DNA from: Planctomycetota bacterium | GTDB lineage: Bacteria > Planctomycetota > Planctomycetia > Pirellulales > Pirellulaceae | Assembly (NCBI GenBank): GCA_018970165.1 | Contig: JAGWWZ010000044.1 | Coordinates: 1-32,708 of the forward strand | Direction: 5' to 3' | DNA: 32,708 nt | Shown here: positions 12,648 to 17,485 of the stretch, piece after piece | How the letters are laid out: every line of letters begins with the position of its first letter | How positions within the stretch are numbered: position 1 is the first letter of the stretch | Position numbers and translations under genes: made by a program | Notes under the pieces: generated by a model | What the model was told of the DNA's origin: nothing | The model's database searches: none | What the model saw: only the letters and a program-made list of their open reading frames with translations

Positions 12648-12905
12648 GCCAGACTTGCTCCATGAAATGAGTCTTTCAAGCCTAGGTTTCAGCATATGGC
12701 CGGCGGAAAAACGGCTTGAAGACGCCGCATGAAATCTGCTGGTGCGCCGAGGAAAACCGGTTGTAGGGGTCGTAGCGAGGGGCGGGATTGCAAAACTGAG
12801 GGAACAAAAAACGATTGTCCTCTAGATTTTGCTCCTCGGTCGAAGTTAAAACTTGGGAATCCTCTTGCGTGAATGTGTGGCTTCAAAATATGCGAGCCTG
12901 TGTCC

Positions 12906-14384
12906 ATGGACAGCGAAGCGGTGATGGAAAAAGGTTTCGATCCTCTAGGGATTCGAACATATAACTCTTTGGGATTTTTTGACGAAATGTTCTCTTCTCC
13001 GGGCCAACCTCGCCCCGGAGTCGAGTTCTTGGTCGATCGTTTGGAAAGTCTCCCACTGGGCGAATTGCAGCGCCGCCAAAGGGCCGCCGACCACGAATTG
13101 CTCAACATGGGGATCACCTTCAACGTCTACGGGCATGCAGCCGGGACCGAAAAGATCTGGCCATTCGACTTGATCCCTCGCGTGATTCTGGAACGCGAAT
13201 GGCAACTCATCGAATCGGGGCTCAAGCAGCGGATCCGAGCGCTGAACATGTTCATCGACGACATGTACCACGAACAGCGCATCGTTCGTGATGGCGTGAT
13301 GCCTGAGTACATGGTCTCGACCAGCAAAGGCTACCTCAAACAACTGCACGGCATGAATCCATCGCGTGGCATCTGGTGCCACATCACGGGAACGGATTTG
13401 GTGCGAGGCGCAGACGGTCAAATTTACGTGCTCGAGGATAATCTCCGATGCCCTTCAGGTGTGTCGTATGTGATCGAGAATCGCGAGGTGATGAAGCGAA
13501 CATTCCCTCAGCTATTCGAAGGGCACAACATCCTGCCCGTTGAAACCTACCCGGAACAATTGCTGAAGATGCTTCAGTATGTCGCCCCAGCATCCGCTCG
13601 CGATCCCAACGTCGTTGTGCTGACCCCCGGTATCTACAACTCGGCCTATTTCGAACACTGTTTCCTTGCACAACAAATGGGAGTCGAGTTGGTCCAAGGC
13701 CCCGACTTGGTTGTCAAGGATGGTTACGTGTGCATGCGCACAACCAAAGGGCTGCAGCGCGTCGATGTCATCTACCGACGCATCGACGATGATTTCCTTG
13801 ACCCCGATACCCTTCGCCCGGACTCCACGTTAGGTGTACGCGGACTGATGGACGTCTATCGCTCCGGACGAGTGGCATTGGTCAACGCACCGGGTACCGG
13901 CGTGGCGGACGACAAGGCGGTTTATGCTTATGTTCCAAAGATGATCGAATACTATCTCTCGGAAACGATGATTCTGCCGAATGTGCCTACATACATGTGC
14001 GCGGATCCCGAGCAACGCAAATATGTCCTCAGCCACTTGCATGAACTGGTCATCAAGCCCGCCAACGAGTCCGGAGGCTATGGCATCCTGCTCGGACCTC
14101 GCGCGACCCGGGACCAAATCGATCAATACCGACATCTGATCGAAACCAATCCACGCAATTACGTTGCTCAGCCGATGCTCGCCCTATCGACGGTACCCAC
14201 CCTTTGCGGCGACACGCTCGAAGGCCGGCACGTGGATCTACGACCCTACATCCTGTATGGCGAAGATATCTATATCGTCCCCGGTGGCTTGACCCGCGTC
14301 GCCCTTGTCAAAGGCTCGCTGGTGGTCAACTCATCGCAAGGTGGGGGGAGCAAGGATACATGGGTCCTCAGGGAAGAGTTCTGA
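12906..14384 (+). CDS. Circularly permuted ATP-grasp protein
   Basis: About 492 residues from the ATG at 12906; an ATG at 12873 would add 11 and one at 12924 would remove 6. None has a ribosome-binding site. The motifs [73 protein letters not shown] and [17 protein letters not shown] identify the circularly permuted ATP-grasp family (DUF404/DUF407 region). These enzymes are predicted to ligate amino or carboxyl groups using ATP, probably to build a small peptide. The alpha-E gene starts 84 bases downstream, the usual order for this system. Confidence 0.92.
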
Positions 14385-14468
14385 GCAACCGCCAGGCGAA
14401 ACTGGGGCCTGACAGATGAGGGTGAACGATCGGTTCGGTAATATTCATTTTTGGGATATTGATTCAAT

Positions 14469-15419
14469 ATGCTCTCAAGAGTCGCTGATTCGATTTTCTG
14501 GATGCGTCGCTACACGGAACGAGCCGAGAATGTGGCACGGTTCATCGACGTGACACTTAATCTGACCCTGGGGCTCGGCGACCACCTGGATCATCAATGG
14601 GAAGCTCTCGTCTACACGACTGGAGACCAGGAGCGATTCTTTGAAACCTACCAACATGTTTGCCAGGAGTACGTGATTCGCTTTCTGACATTTGACGAGC
14701 AGAATCCCAATTCGATTTTATCGTGCCTGCAATATGCTCGCGAAAACGCACGGCAGAGCCGCGAGATGCTCAGTAGCCAGATGTGGGAAGAACTCAACAA
14801 GTTCTATCTCTTCGTACGCGACAGCCGAAACGATCCGCGCGCGATCGATTCGCCTTTCGAGTTCTTCACCCGAGTTCGGCAATTCGGTTATCTCATCGAC
14901 GGCGTTGTCACAGGAACCATGTCGCACGGCGAAGCATGGAACTTTGGGCGATTGGGCGCGATGCTCGAGCGGGCAGACAAGACATCGCGCATCCTCGATG
15001 TAAAGTACTTTTTGCTTCTACCCAGTGTCACCGATGTTGGTACCTCCCTCGATATCAGCCAATGGGGCATGCTCCTCAAGAGCGCCAGCGCCTTGGAGAT
15101 GTACCGTCGACGATTCGGACGATTGTCACCAAAACTGGTAGCCGCGTTTCTGCTACTCGATCGCGATTTTCCGAGAGCGGTCCATTTCTGCATCGCGCTC
15201 GCCGAGCGATCGCTCCTGTCGATCACGGGTGGGACGCCTGGTAATTTCCGCAATCGACCCGAACAGCTTCTCGGACGTTTGCGAGCCGAATTCGAGTTTC
15301 TCGATATCGACGAAATCATGAACGAAGGACTGCACGATTTCATCGATGGCTTCCAAGGCAAACTCAACTCCATCGGCGAAGCAGTCCAAGAGATGTTCTT
15401 CGAAGTCCAGATGGCGTAA
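14469..15419 (+). CDS. Alpha-E domain protein (DUF403)
   Basis: 316 residues starting MLSRVADSIFWMRRYTERAE, the typical start of the all-helical alpha-E family. Further family segments include RFLTFDEQNPNSILSCLQYA, HGEAWNFGRLGAMLERADKT and ARENARQSREMLSSQMWEEL. The family accompanies circularly permuted ATP-grasp proteins, and its own activity is not established. In many genomes a transglutaminase-like protease gene follows; here the next gene is dnaX on the opposite strand, so that partner is missing from the site. It is probably cotranscribed with the ATP-grasp gene. Confidence 0.93.
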   Translation: MLSRVADSIFWMRRYTERAENVARFIDVTLNLTLGLGDHLDHQWEALVYTTGDQERFFETYQHVCQEYVIRFLTFDEQNPNSILSCLQYARENARQSREMLSSQMWEELNKFYLFVRDSRNDPRAIDSPFEFFTRVRQFGYLIDGVVTGTMSHGEAWNFGRLGAMLERADKTSRILDVKYFLLLPSVTDVGTSLDISQWGMLLKSASALEMYRRRFGRLSPKLVAAFLLLDRDFPRAVHFCIALAERSLLSITGGTPGNFRNRPEQLLGRLRAEFEFLDIDEIMNEGLHDFIDGFQGKLNSIGEAVQEMFFEVQMA

Positions 15420-15637: not shown

Positions 15638-17485
15638 TCAGGTATCTGCTGAGGTATCTTGCTCAGCTTCCTCGGCGATCAAAGTCTTCGGTGGAGGAAT
15701 CGTTGCGCTGGCAGGATCATCGACTCGGAAAACATGTCCTTCGAAGGTGCTCATGAACTTCTGAACCAACGGATGCCCCATCGCTTCTCGAATCCGTTGA
15801 TTCGAGCTACCTGGAGACAATGCCCTTTGTGGCTCTGGCGATGCAGAAACCTCTTCTGCTGGCTTGGCGCCCGGTGGCACCTCGCGATGGGTCAAAATCC
15901 ATTCCAGCTCGATGGCGTTCCCGATGTTCTGACCGAGAGCGTATTGAATGAGTCCTTGGTTCTCCGGTTTGCGGAACCATTCGATCGCGAACTTTGCATC
16001 GCGAGCTAAGAGAACTCGCCATCTGTGACTCGAACTGGGCTGGACTTCGAGCGTCATCCACGCCGCCTGCTGAACAACACCATCGATTTTTCCGACCACG
16101 CATCGGAAAATCTCCAAGGCGGCTTCAGCAGAGATTAACTCATCCTCTTTTTTTTTTGAGTCGGCCTCGGATACCGTCGGAGCGATTGGAGACGGGTCAA
16201 CTGTTGGAGGCGGATCTATTGTTGGAGACGGAGTTGTTTCGGTAATGCGAGGCTTCGGCGGCGCGGGAGGTGGTTGGGGTGGGGGTGCAACGGTGAGGGT
16301 GGGGCGATGCCCTGTCGCCAGTCCTCTGACGACGTCGGACAGAAGTTGCAGATCCTGAAGATTGCATATCTGCACCAACGCTACTTCGAGGAGAATGCGA
16401 GACTGAACACTGTGCTTCATGCGCACAATCGTTTCGTCGAGCAGTTGCATGGCAGACAGCAGCGTCATCGTTCCCCAGTATTTGCCGGACTCGCGAAGCG
16501 AGTCTGCACCATTCGGATTAGCCGTTCGCATCAAATCGACGGGGCCGCCGATGGACAGTGCCATCATGTCTCTTAGATATCCGAGCAACTGTTCTGCTAG
16601 TTGTCCTGGGTCGACTCCTTCACTCACCGCCGCATCGAGTTCCTGCAGTGCTCCTGCGGCGTTTCGCTGAATCATGCACTGCGCGAACGATGCCAATCGG
16701 CTTTCGTCCGCAGTGCCGAGCATAGTATTCACATCGTCGACCGTGATGCGATGGCTACCGAAGCTCAATAGTTGTTCCAACAAGGATTGGCTATCCCGCA
16801 TGGAGCCAGCGGCCCGACGCGCGATCAATCGCAAGGCATCTTCGTTCGCTTCGGTCCCTTCGTGCTGGCAAATGAACTTCAAACGCTCGAGAATTTGGTC
16901 GATCTGAACAGGAGGAAAATCAAATCTTTGGCAACGGGATAAGACCGTGATCGGAATCTTTTCGGGGTCGGTGGTGCAAAAGATGAATTTGACATGTCCG
17001 GGCGGTTCTTCGAGCGTCTTAAGGAGTGCATTGAACGCTTCCTTGGTGAGCATGTGCACTTCGTCGATGATGTAAATCTTGAATCGACATCGAGTGGGGC
17101 GAATCGAAGCGTTGGCTCGGATCTGGCGTATTTCTTCGATCCTGCGATTGCTCGCTCCGTCGATTTCGATCACATCCATGTCTTCGCCACTATCGATGGC
17201 CAGTGAAATCTCCGAGTTGGGATCAAAGCGCCCGGTTCCGTCTTCAGAGGCGTTCAGGGCCTTGGCAAAAATGCGGGCCGTGCTTGTCTTGCCGACCCCT
17301 CGGGCGCCGGTGAACAAGTAGGCGTGCCCCACGCGATGTGTCTCGATCGCCCGCAACAAAGCCTGGGCCACCGTGTCCTGGCCGACCAATTCCTGGAAGG
17401 TTTTGGGACGATAGCGTCGGGCAACGACCGTATATTTCTCTTCGGCTGAGGAATCGATTTCTGAGGTTTCCGATGTGTCCTTCAT
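15638..17485 (-). CDS. dnaX: DNA polymerase III subunits gamma and tau
   Basis: 615 residues, close to the 643 of E. coli tau. The N-terminal ATPase has ARRYRPKTFQELVGQDTVAQ, the P-loop GARGVGKTSTA, the Walker B motif IIDEVHML, and TTDPEKIPITVLSRCQRFDF with the SRC sensor. The clamp-loader domains run to about residue 390, followed by a proline-rich linker (392-442) encoding repeats like TIDPPPTVDPSP, and then a tau-specific domain. The gene loads the sliding clamp and couples polymerase to helicase. Two oddities: the Cys4 zinc module normally found after the P-loop is replaced by a Cys-free stretch (ALNASEDGTGRFDPNSEISL), and the coding strand has ten consecutive A residues at the end of the linker (16148-16157), described separately. 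ATG start at 17485. It is convergent with alpha-E and divergent from the ThuA gene. Confidence 0.96.
   Translation of the reverse strand: MKDTSETSEIDSSAEEKYTVVARRYRPKTFQELVGQDTVAQALLRAIETHRVGHAYLFTGARGVGKTSTARIFAKALNASEDGTGRFDPNSEISLAIDSGEDMDVIEIDGASNRRIEEIRQIRANASIRPTRCRFKIYIIDEVHMLTKEAFNALLKTLEEPPGHVKFIFCTTDPEKIPITVLSRCQRFDFPPVQIDQILERLKFICQHEGTEANEDALRLIARRAAGSMRDSQSLLEQLLSFGSHRITVDDVNTMLGTADESRLASFAQCMIQRNAAGALQELDAAVSEGVDPGQLAEQLLGYLRDMMALSIGGPVDLMRTANPNGADSLRESGKYWGTMTLLSAMQLLDETIVRMKHSVQSRILLEVALVQICNLQDLQLLSDVVRGLATGHRPTLTVAPPPQPPPAPPKPRITETTPSPTIDPPPTVDPSPIAPTVSEADSKKKEDELISAEAALEIFRCVVGKIDGVVQQAAWMTLEVQPSSSHRWRVLLARDAKFAIEWFRKPENQGLIQYALGQNIGNAIELEWILTHREVPPGAKPAEEVSASPEPQRALSPGSSNQRIREAMGHPLVQKFMSTFEGHVFRVDDPASATIPPPKTLIAEEAEQDTSADT
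16148..16157 (-). promoter_or_regulatory. A10 run in dnaX, candidate slippage site for making gamma
   Basis: The minus strand reads TCA AAA AAA AAA GAG GAT GAG at codons 443-449, giving ten consecutive A residues. With one extra A the frame reads Lys-Lys-Lys-Arg-Gly-stop (448 residues). With one A missing it reads Lys-Lys-Lys-Arg-Met-Ser-stop (449 residues). Both shifted frames therefore end at once, at a gamma-like length. A GAGG lies seven bases before the run. Thermus dnaX is known to make gamma by transcriptional slippage on nine A residues, and E. coli by ribosomal frameshifting; use here is inference. Confidence 0.65.

Follow-up and report, generated by a model that had tools for sequence, protein, structure and literature searches.

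A putative transcriptional slippage site in dnaX: an A9 or A10 run backed by double out-of-frame stops in most sampled genera of the Planctomycetia

Results and Discussion

Sequence comparisons among planctomycetes indicate that a run of ten A's (A10) in the dnaX gene of a 32,708-nucleotide contig (the window, meaning the whole stretch of DNA analyzed) is in all probability a programmed transcriptional slippage site. Two observations carry this reading: an A9 or A10 run is kept at this place in most sampled genera of the window's class, which named relatives place in the Planctomycetia, and stop codons are kept shortly behind it in both shifted reading frames. The features of the locus are as follows, all on the minus strand.

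15638..17485: dnaX, encoding the 615-aa tau subunit of DNA polymerase III and, nested inside it, a shorter gamma-like form (NCBIfam profiles)
16364..17434: clamp-loader ATPase domains I-III, common to both forms (TIGR02397 positions 1-355; Pfam PF13177, PF22608, and PF12169)
16158..16324: proline-rich linker, about residues 388-443 (translation; last residue of the domain III match, 387)
16148..16157: putative A10 slippage site, the third base of codon 443 plus codons 444-446 (sequence; kept in relatives)
16140..16142: TGA, met after addition of one A (448 aa; in silico translation)
16135..16137: TAA, met after loss of one A (449 aa) or addition of two (450 aa; in silico translation)
15641..16147: C-terminal region specific to tau (residues 447-615), absent from the short form (position after domain III)

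The dnaX product scored 433.7 bits against NCBIfam PRK05563.1 (cut-off, 400) and 417.9 bits against TIGR02397 (cut-off, 250), and a profile search of the genome returned it as the sole match above the TIGR02397 cut-off. On the plus strand of the window the run reads as T10 at 16148-16157, exactly where a sequence-only reading of this DNA had put ten consecutive A's in dnaX, and it is the only A/T run of at least 8 in the 32.7-kb window. The coding strand reads TCA AAA AAA AAA GAG GAT GAG TTA at the site. Translated in silico, ten A's gave the 615-aa protein (67.7 kDa), eleven a protein ending in ...SKKKRG (448 aa, 49.3 kDa), and nine a protein ending in ...SKKKRMS (449 aa, 49.4 kDa); the product lengths given in that reading were reproduced, and the 431 aa that it quoted for Escherichia coli gamma matches the annotated CDS. 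Adjoining dnaX, on the plus strand at 12873-15419, lie a circularly permuted ATP-grasp gene and then an Alpha-E domain gene.

Conservation of the run

A total of 139 dnaX loci were read (L001-L139). A first set of 60 genomes gave a match in every case, at a permissive threshold under which paralogues count too, and five of these (G009, G023, G026, G028, and G058) were left out for having no dnaX match over the linker; in a sample of the phylum, 286 of 294 genomes were matched at an E value of 1e-50, and two genomes of the class (G111 and G307) were left out. Outside the class, 234 genomes gave a match; the 39 loci used from there were picked among the matches listed, best first, to cover families, with a lean toward better-scoring ones. 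One locus whose contig ends before the linker (L008) stands outside the run counts.

Within the class, 84 of the 99 loci with a linker carried A9 or A10 there and 15 did not; by genus, the run was found in every member read in 49/60 and in no member in 11/60. Linker runs among the class loci were of 9 or 10 throughout, with none of 8 and none of 11 or more. Among the loci from outside the class, the run was present in 7/39 and missing in 32/39. The sequence-only reading had named nine or more A's in a row with both nearby stops as what to look for in relatives, and loss of the run in close relatives, or its interruption by G, as the case against it: the latter was not encountered within the window's genus, where all 22 other loci with a linker had A10, but it did arise farther out, as one of the 11 genera lacking the run (g35; L031, L034, and L036, with no A run longer than 5 seen in the linker) belongs to the window's own family. 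Named loci close to the window were similarly mixed, with A10 in Aporhodopirellula aestuarii (L164), A9 in Gemmata sp. IIL30 (L169), and no A run of 8 or more in “Candidatus Anammoximicrobium” (L165) or Planctomycetota SZUA-1497 (L166). These absences inside and outside the class weigh against the slippage reading, in that gamma, or this route to gamma, would be dispensable.

The position of the run relative to the codon was not constant. Over 100 runs, the first A fell on codon position 2 (ph1) in 45, on position 3 (ph2) in 52, and on position 1 (ph0) in 3, and the flanks of the run also differed between loci. Since phase varies and residues differ while the run stays, selection appears to act on the nucleotides; conservation at the level of the peptide was rejected on account of the changing phase.

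Two runs within a single linker were found in 9 of 91 run-bearing loci. In seven of these, all of one genus that is not the window's (L050, L054, L055, L056, L058, L084, and L089), the pair lies 4 codons apart; in the other two, from the window's genus (L005 and L007), two A10 runs lie about 40 codons apart. Shifted-frame stops in the two-run loci fell within 10 codons. An A10 far behind the linker in L117 was kept out of the counts.

A tree was built from 110 of 135 rows, after removal of L008, L079, L119, and L114 and then thinning to no more than two rows for each combination of genus and label. All rows that carry a run in the linker fell in one group of 80 (SH-aLRT, 95), and the fewest changes required on this tree, as raw counts, were 12 for presence, 12 for phase, and 18 for length.

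Stops in both shifted frames

The stop tests covered 90 run-bearing loci, with L139, whose layout is reversed (see below), left out. In the frame entered by adding one A, a stop lay within 12 codons in all 90 loci, and in the frame entered by losing one A, in 84; one shifted frame stayed open beyond 12 codons in the remaining 6. Both stops lay within 3 codons in 36/90, the window's site included, compared with about 1% at matched positions in the rest of these genes, and within 6 codons in 71/90. This last count was far above both null models: permuting the 22 codons that follow the run (300 trials) gave a mean of 6.5 and a maximum of 15 of the 90 loci, and synonymous resampling (300 trials) gave a mean of 12.5 and a maximum of 23. 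Weighting by genus (55 genera) left the contrast in place, with a rate of 0.69 for both stops within 6 codons versus 0.06 under shuffling (maximum, 0.15) and 0.13 under resampling (maximum, 0.25); the genus-averaged rate at other positions of the same genes was 0.03. Moreover, the stops were built from different bases in different lineages. The view put forward from the window's letters, that a double stop directly behind the run is hardly accidental, is thereby borne out, and these comparisons constitute strong evidence that both of the shifted frames are under selection. A stop on either side fits a slippage that adds or removes bases.

Two loci deserve separate mention. In L250, added later, the shifted-frame stops are 20 and 14 codons off. 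In L002 (G025:C331), frame 0 ends 16 codons past the run and the tau part lies in another frame, which may reflect an assembly error or a broken gene.

Rarity of A10 in the genomes

Both strands of eight genomes were scanned for A10. The 5.2-Mb assembly of the window's genome (G000) held two A10/T10 words, dnaX included, where about 17 word positions would be expected from the dinucleotides of the window; the second (G000:C240:7768) lies, by our own reading of the sequence, at a terminator-like GC hairpin between genes. Counts for the others were 2 (G006), 7 (G032), 5 (G036), 0 (G041), 1 (G283), and 5 (G177), and the two overlapping words of G226 amount to one A11 in an open frame other than dnaX. 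The dnaX gene was among the A10 words in G000, G006, G032, G036, G283, and G177, and the dnaX genes of G041 and G226 carry A9. Several of the words outside dnaX also sit in long open frames (some in G032, G036, and G177). With five to seven A10 words in each of these three genomes and an A11 in G226, a long run alone is no proof of a program. In G000, G006, and G283, by contrast, A10 is rare, which supports the slippage reading. A chance origin of the dnaX run was rejected, because A10 falls below expectation in the window's genome, the run is kept in relatives, and the stops exceed the null models. An artefact of sequencing or assembly was likewise rejected, as four genomes assembled into a single contig (G006, G036, G032, and G283) also have A10 in dnaX.

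RNA polymerase or ribosome

The slippage-site interpretation that had been offered for the window gains support from the kept run and the kept stops; slippage in the RNA itself, the ratio in which it would occur, and the use made of the short product are what we infer from them. In the proposed mechanism, RNA polymerase passing over ten template T's would sometimes add or drop an A, yielding dnaX mRNAs with 9, 10, 11, or other numbers of A's. Those with 10 (or 10 plus or minus 3) would be translated into the 615-aa tau; the others would reach a stop within 4 codons past the run, and their product would be a gamma-like protein of some 447-450 aa, which would keep the clamp-loader ATPase and lose the tau-specific C-terminal region.

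An alternative is that the frame is lost at the run by ribosomes and not by RNA polymerase, whether by -1 frameshifting of the E. coli type or by free sliding on AAA codons. E. coli dnaX does use -1 frameshifting (PMC5009743; annotation), ribosomes in E. coli extracts were reported to slide into several frames on AAA stretches (PMC4363877), sliding of that sort would be expected to leave much the same mark on the sequence, and A_AAA_AAA is present in the window's frame. The E. coli site, as described in PMC5009743 and PMC3711429, combines A_AAA_AAG with an upstream Shine-Dalgarno sequence and a hairpin. A_AAA_AAG in frame was found in only 5 of 100 runs (from a table of the next bases) and is absent from the window (A AAA AAA AAA GAG). 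Stimulators were assessed as the percentile, within the gene itself, of the downstream fold and of the upstream match to the anti-Shine-Dalgarno sequence in 56 genus representatives, with L139 kept in the fold test. Neither was enriched: mean percentiles were 0.527 for the downstream hairpin (Kolmogorov-Smirnov [KS] P = 0.55) and 0.525 for the upstream Shine-Dalgarno (KS P = 0.41), with 2/56 at or below 0.05 in each case, and a conserved hairpin or Shine-Dalgarno near the run was rejected on these flat distributions. The window ranked at 0.41 for the fold, versus 0.05 for the E. coli control, and at 0.14 for the Shine-Dalgarno. E. coli dnaX itself reached only 0.05 and 0.10, respectively, which makes the test weak for any single gene and places its strength in the set; individual loci did stand out (L063, fold percentile 0.00; L045, Shine-Dalgarno 0.01). 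Three further points speak against a ribosomal shift: (i) stops are kept in the +1 frame as well as in the -1 frame, (ii) the runs keep to a length of 9 or 10 although, depending on phase, they contain two or three complete AAA codons, and (iii) five reversed A7/A8 loci of the same phylum do have hairpins (see below). Overall, we regard a ribosomal loss of frame as unlikely. The lack of stimulator enrichment and the scarcity of A_AAA_AAG favor RNA polymerase slippage of the kind known from Thermus over E. coli-type frameshifting. Selection against A/T runs was reported to set in at length nine in a large share of the bacterial genomes examined in PMC1088944; this threshold, together with the precedent of Thermus dnaX, makes slippage on runs of at least nine the best reading.

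It is very improbable that the run is kept for the peptide, as a patch of lysines, or for the shape of the DNA, as an A-tract, with the stops incidental. The linker is presumably flexible and tolerant of lysines; against this stand the changing phase, the varying residues, a stop count in excess of synonymous resampling, and the fact that AAG would serve equally well (976 of 1,819 lysine codons elsewhere in these dnaX genes, the other 843 being AAA). Long runs of A are prone to mutation at the DNA level (PMC1088944), but a contingency locus, at which slippage in DNA replication would toggle tau between cells, is scarcely credible given that frame 0 remains open for at least 105 codons past the run in 89/91 loci (the exceptions being L002 and L139; L039, ending at 105 codons, and L017, at 126, are the two of the 89 that end early), which fits a fixed genomic run length and not a switch.

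The region lost in the short form

The region behind the run could be aligned for 46 rows spanning the class, with 19% identity per column on average. At E values up to 0.1, Pfam matches among the 46 members were to DnaX_C (PF20964; 7 members), DUF3646 (PF12362; 6), and DNA_pol3_tau_5 (PF12170; 3), and the window's own region matched none of these three families at that threshold. The best PDB match of the profile was E. coli tau, with an insignificant E value of 0.082, and a predicted model of the window's region (pLDDT, 84) bore a weak resemblance to domain V of E. coli tau. It is designated tau-specific on the grounds that it comes after domain III; beyond that, the designation is putative.

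Relation to known dnaX systems

Transcriptional slippage in dnaX is proven for Thermus, at an A9 with stops in both frames (Larsen et al. 2000, as told in PMC1088944 and PMC5009743). As in Thermus thermophilus, where the ATPase domains are followed on the coding strand by nine or more A's, tau is templated, and stops are close in both frames, the window has its A10 after domain III and the stops of the 448- and 449-aa products close behind. The Thermus type also entails mRNAs of varied run length and tau and gamma near 1:1. The planctomycete runs differ in being A10 or A9, in extending over 49 of the 60 class genera, and in sometimes being doubled (9/91 run-bearing loci). With E. coli dnaX the window shares the principle of one gene with two products, of which the short one would end just past the shift site; it differs in having no A_AAA_AAG, and its relatives differ as a set in the lack of enriched stimulators. 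The GeneTack survey (PMC3711429) listed 17 two-ORF dnaX genes, nine with A10; its 1,106 genomes include two planctomycetes, which may be among the 17. These genes resemble the window in having a poly-A run of 7-10 in dnaX, yet their layout is reversed, in that frame 0 there encodes the short form, a shift being required for tau, whereas in the window tau is frame 0.

No report of dnaX slippage in planctomycetes was found among the papers listed in searches of the open-access literature, a body that excludes most subscription journals. As far as that search reaches, the candidate site would be new for the group and class-wide, by a mechanism already known in kind. Slippage that yields a truncated product was described as hard to judge by sequence comparison, as it opens no extensive new coding sequence (PMC1088944); the double-stop test supplies comparative evidence of this sort, with a slip-prone run and both stops kept across 55 genera. 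The standing of gamma in E. coli has been disputed for years, and the routes to gamma differ between bacteria (PMC5009743). If slippage at these runs holds true in RNA, a whole bacterial class would make gamma in the manner of Thermus, and the need for gamma would be testable there.

Reversed layouts and other lineages

Twenty-five loci belong to a lineage that we call Phycisphaerales-like, after L207, L228, and L179 (the last identical to L123 at the run). Fourteen loci from such families were added later, partly for their short-looking open frames; these fourteen are descriptive and stand outside the main counts. Tau was in frame 0 in 13/25 with A9 or A10 (L250 among them) and in L253 with A8. 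L139 had A10 in a reversed layout and a downstream fold percentile of 0.02. Five loci (L134, L251, L260, L207, and L228) had A7 or A8 just after domain III with a frame-0 stop within 2 codons, hence also reversed, together with downstream fold percentiles of 0.00-0.08 and a -1 frame open for 105-178 codons; these probably use ribosomal frameshifting. Four more (L254, L256, L257, and L259) had G_GGA_AAA_G (GGGAAAA), a stop in frame 0 after one further codon, and downstream fold percentiles of 0.005, 0.005, 0.07, and 0.61, strong in three. The -1 frame is open for only 67-76 codons in three of the four (243 in L257), which makes those less sure. The remaining locus (L258) fits none of these classes cleanly.

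On a 39-row tree with more Phycisphaerales-like rows, reversed loci fell among A9/A10 loci, for example L257 with L135 (99/90) and L251 with L255 (88/83). The same tree parted the window's class from the Phycisphaerales-like rows (97/85), unlike the 110-row tree, and the run may have arisen once or twice. We tentatively propose, at chances that we would put slightly short of even, that planctomycetes keep both DnaX products while the shift machine and the default product are exchangeable, so that selection would act on nothing but the two products together. The routes would be RNA polymerase slippage at A9/A10, with tau templated, on the one hand and, arising more than once in the Phycisphaerales-like lineage, ribosomal -1 frameshifting on the other, at A7/A8 or GGGAAAA and aided by a hairpin, in which case gamma would be the default.

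Comparable layouts were also seen in other phyla, for which the best 80 of 594 dnaX loci from many phyla were considered. Among these 80, one locus of the Opitutaceae (L210) had a reversed layout without a hairpin (fold percentile, 0.57). A linker A9 or A10 was present in members of the Ignavibacteria (L178), Bacteroidetes (L199), and Omnitrophota (L202) and in two Pyrinomonadaceae (L231 and L239), and in all five of these loci stops lay in both shifted frames within 7 codons.
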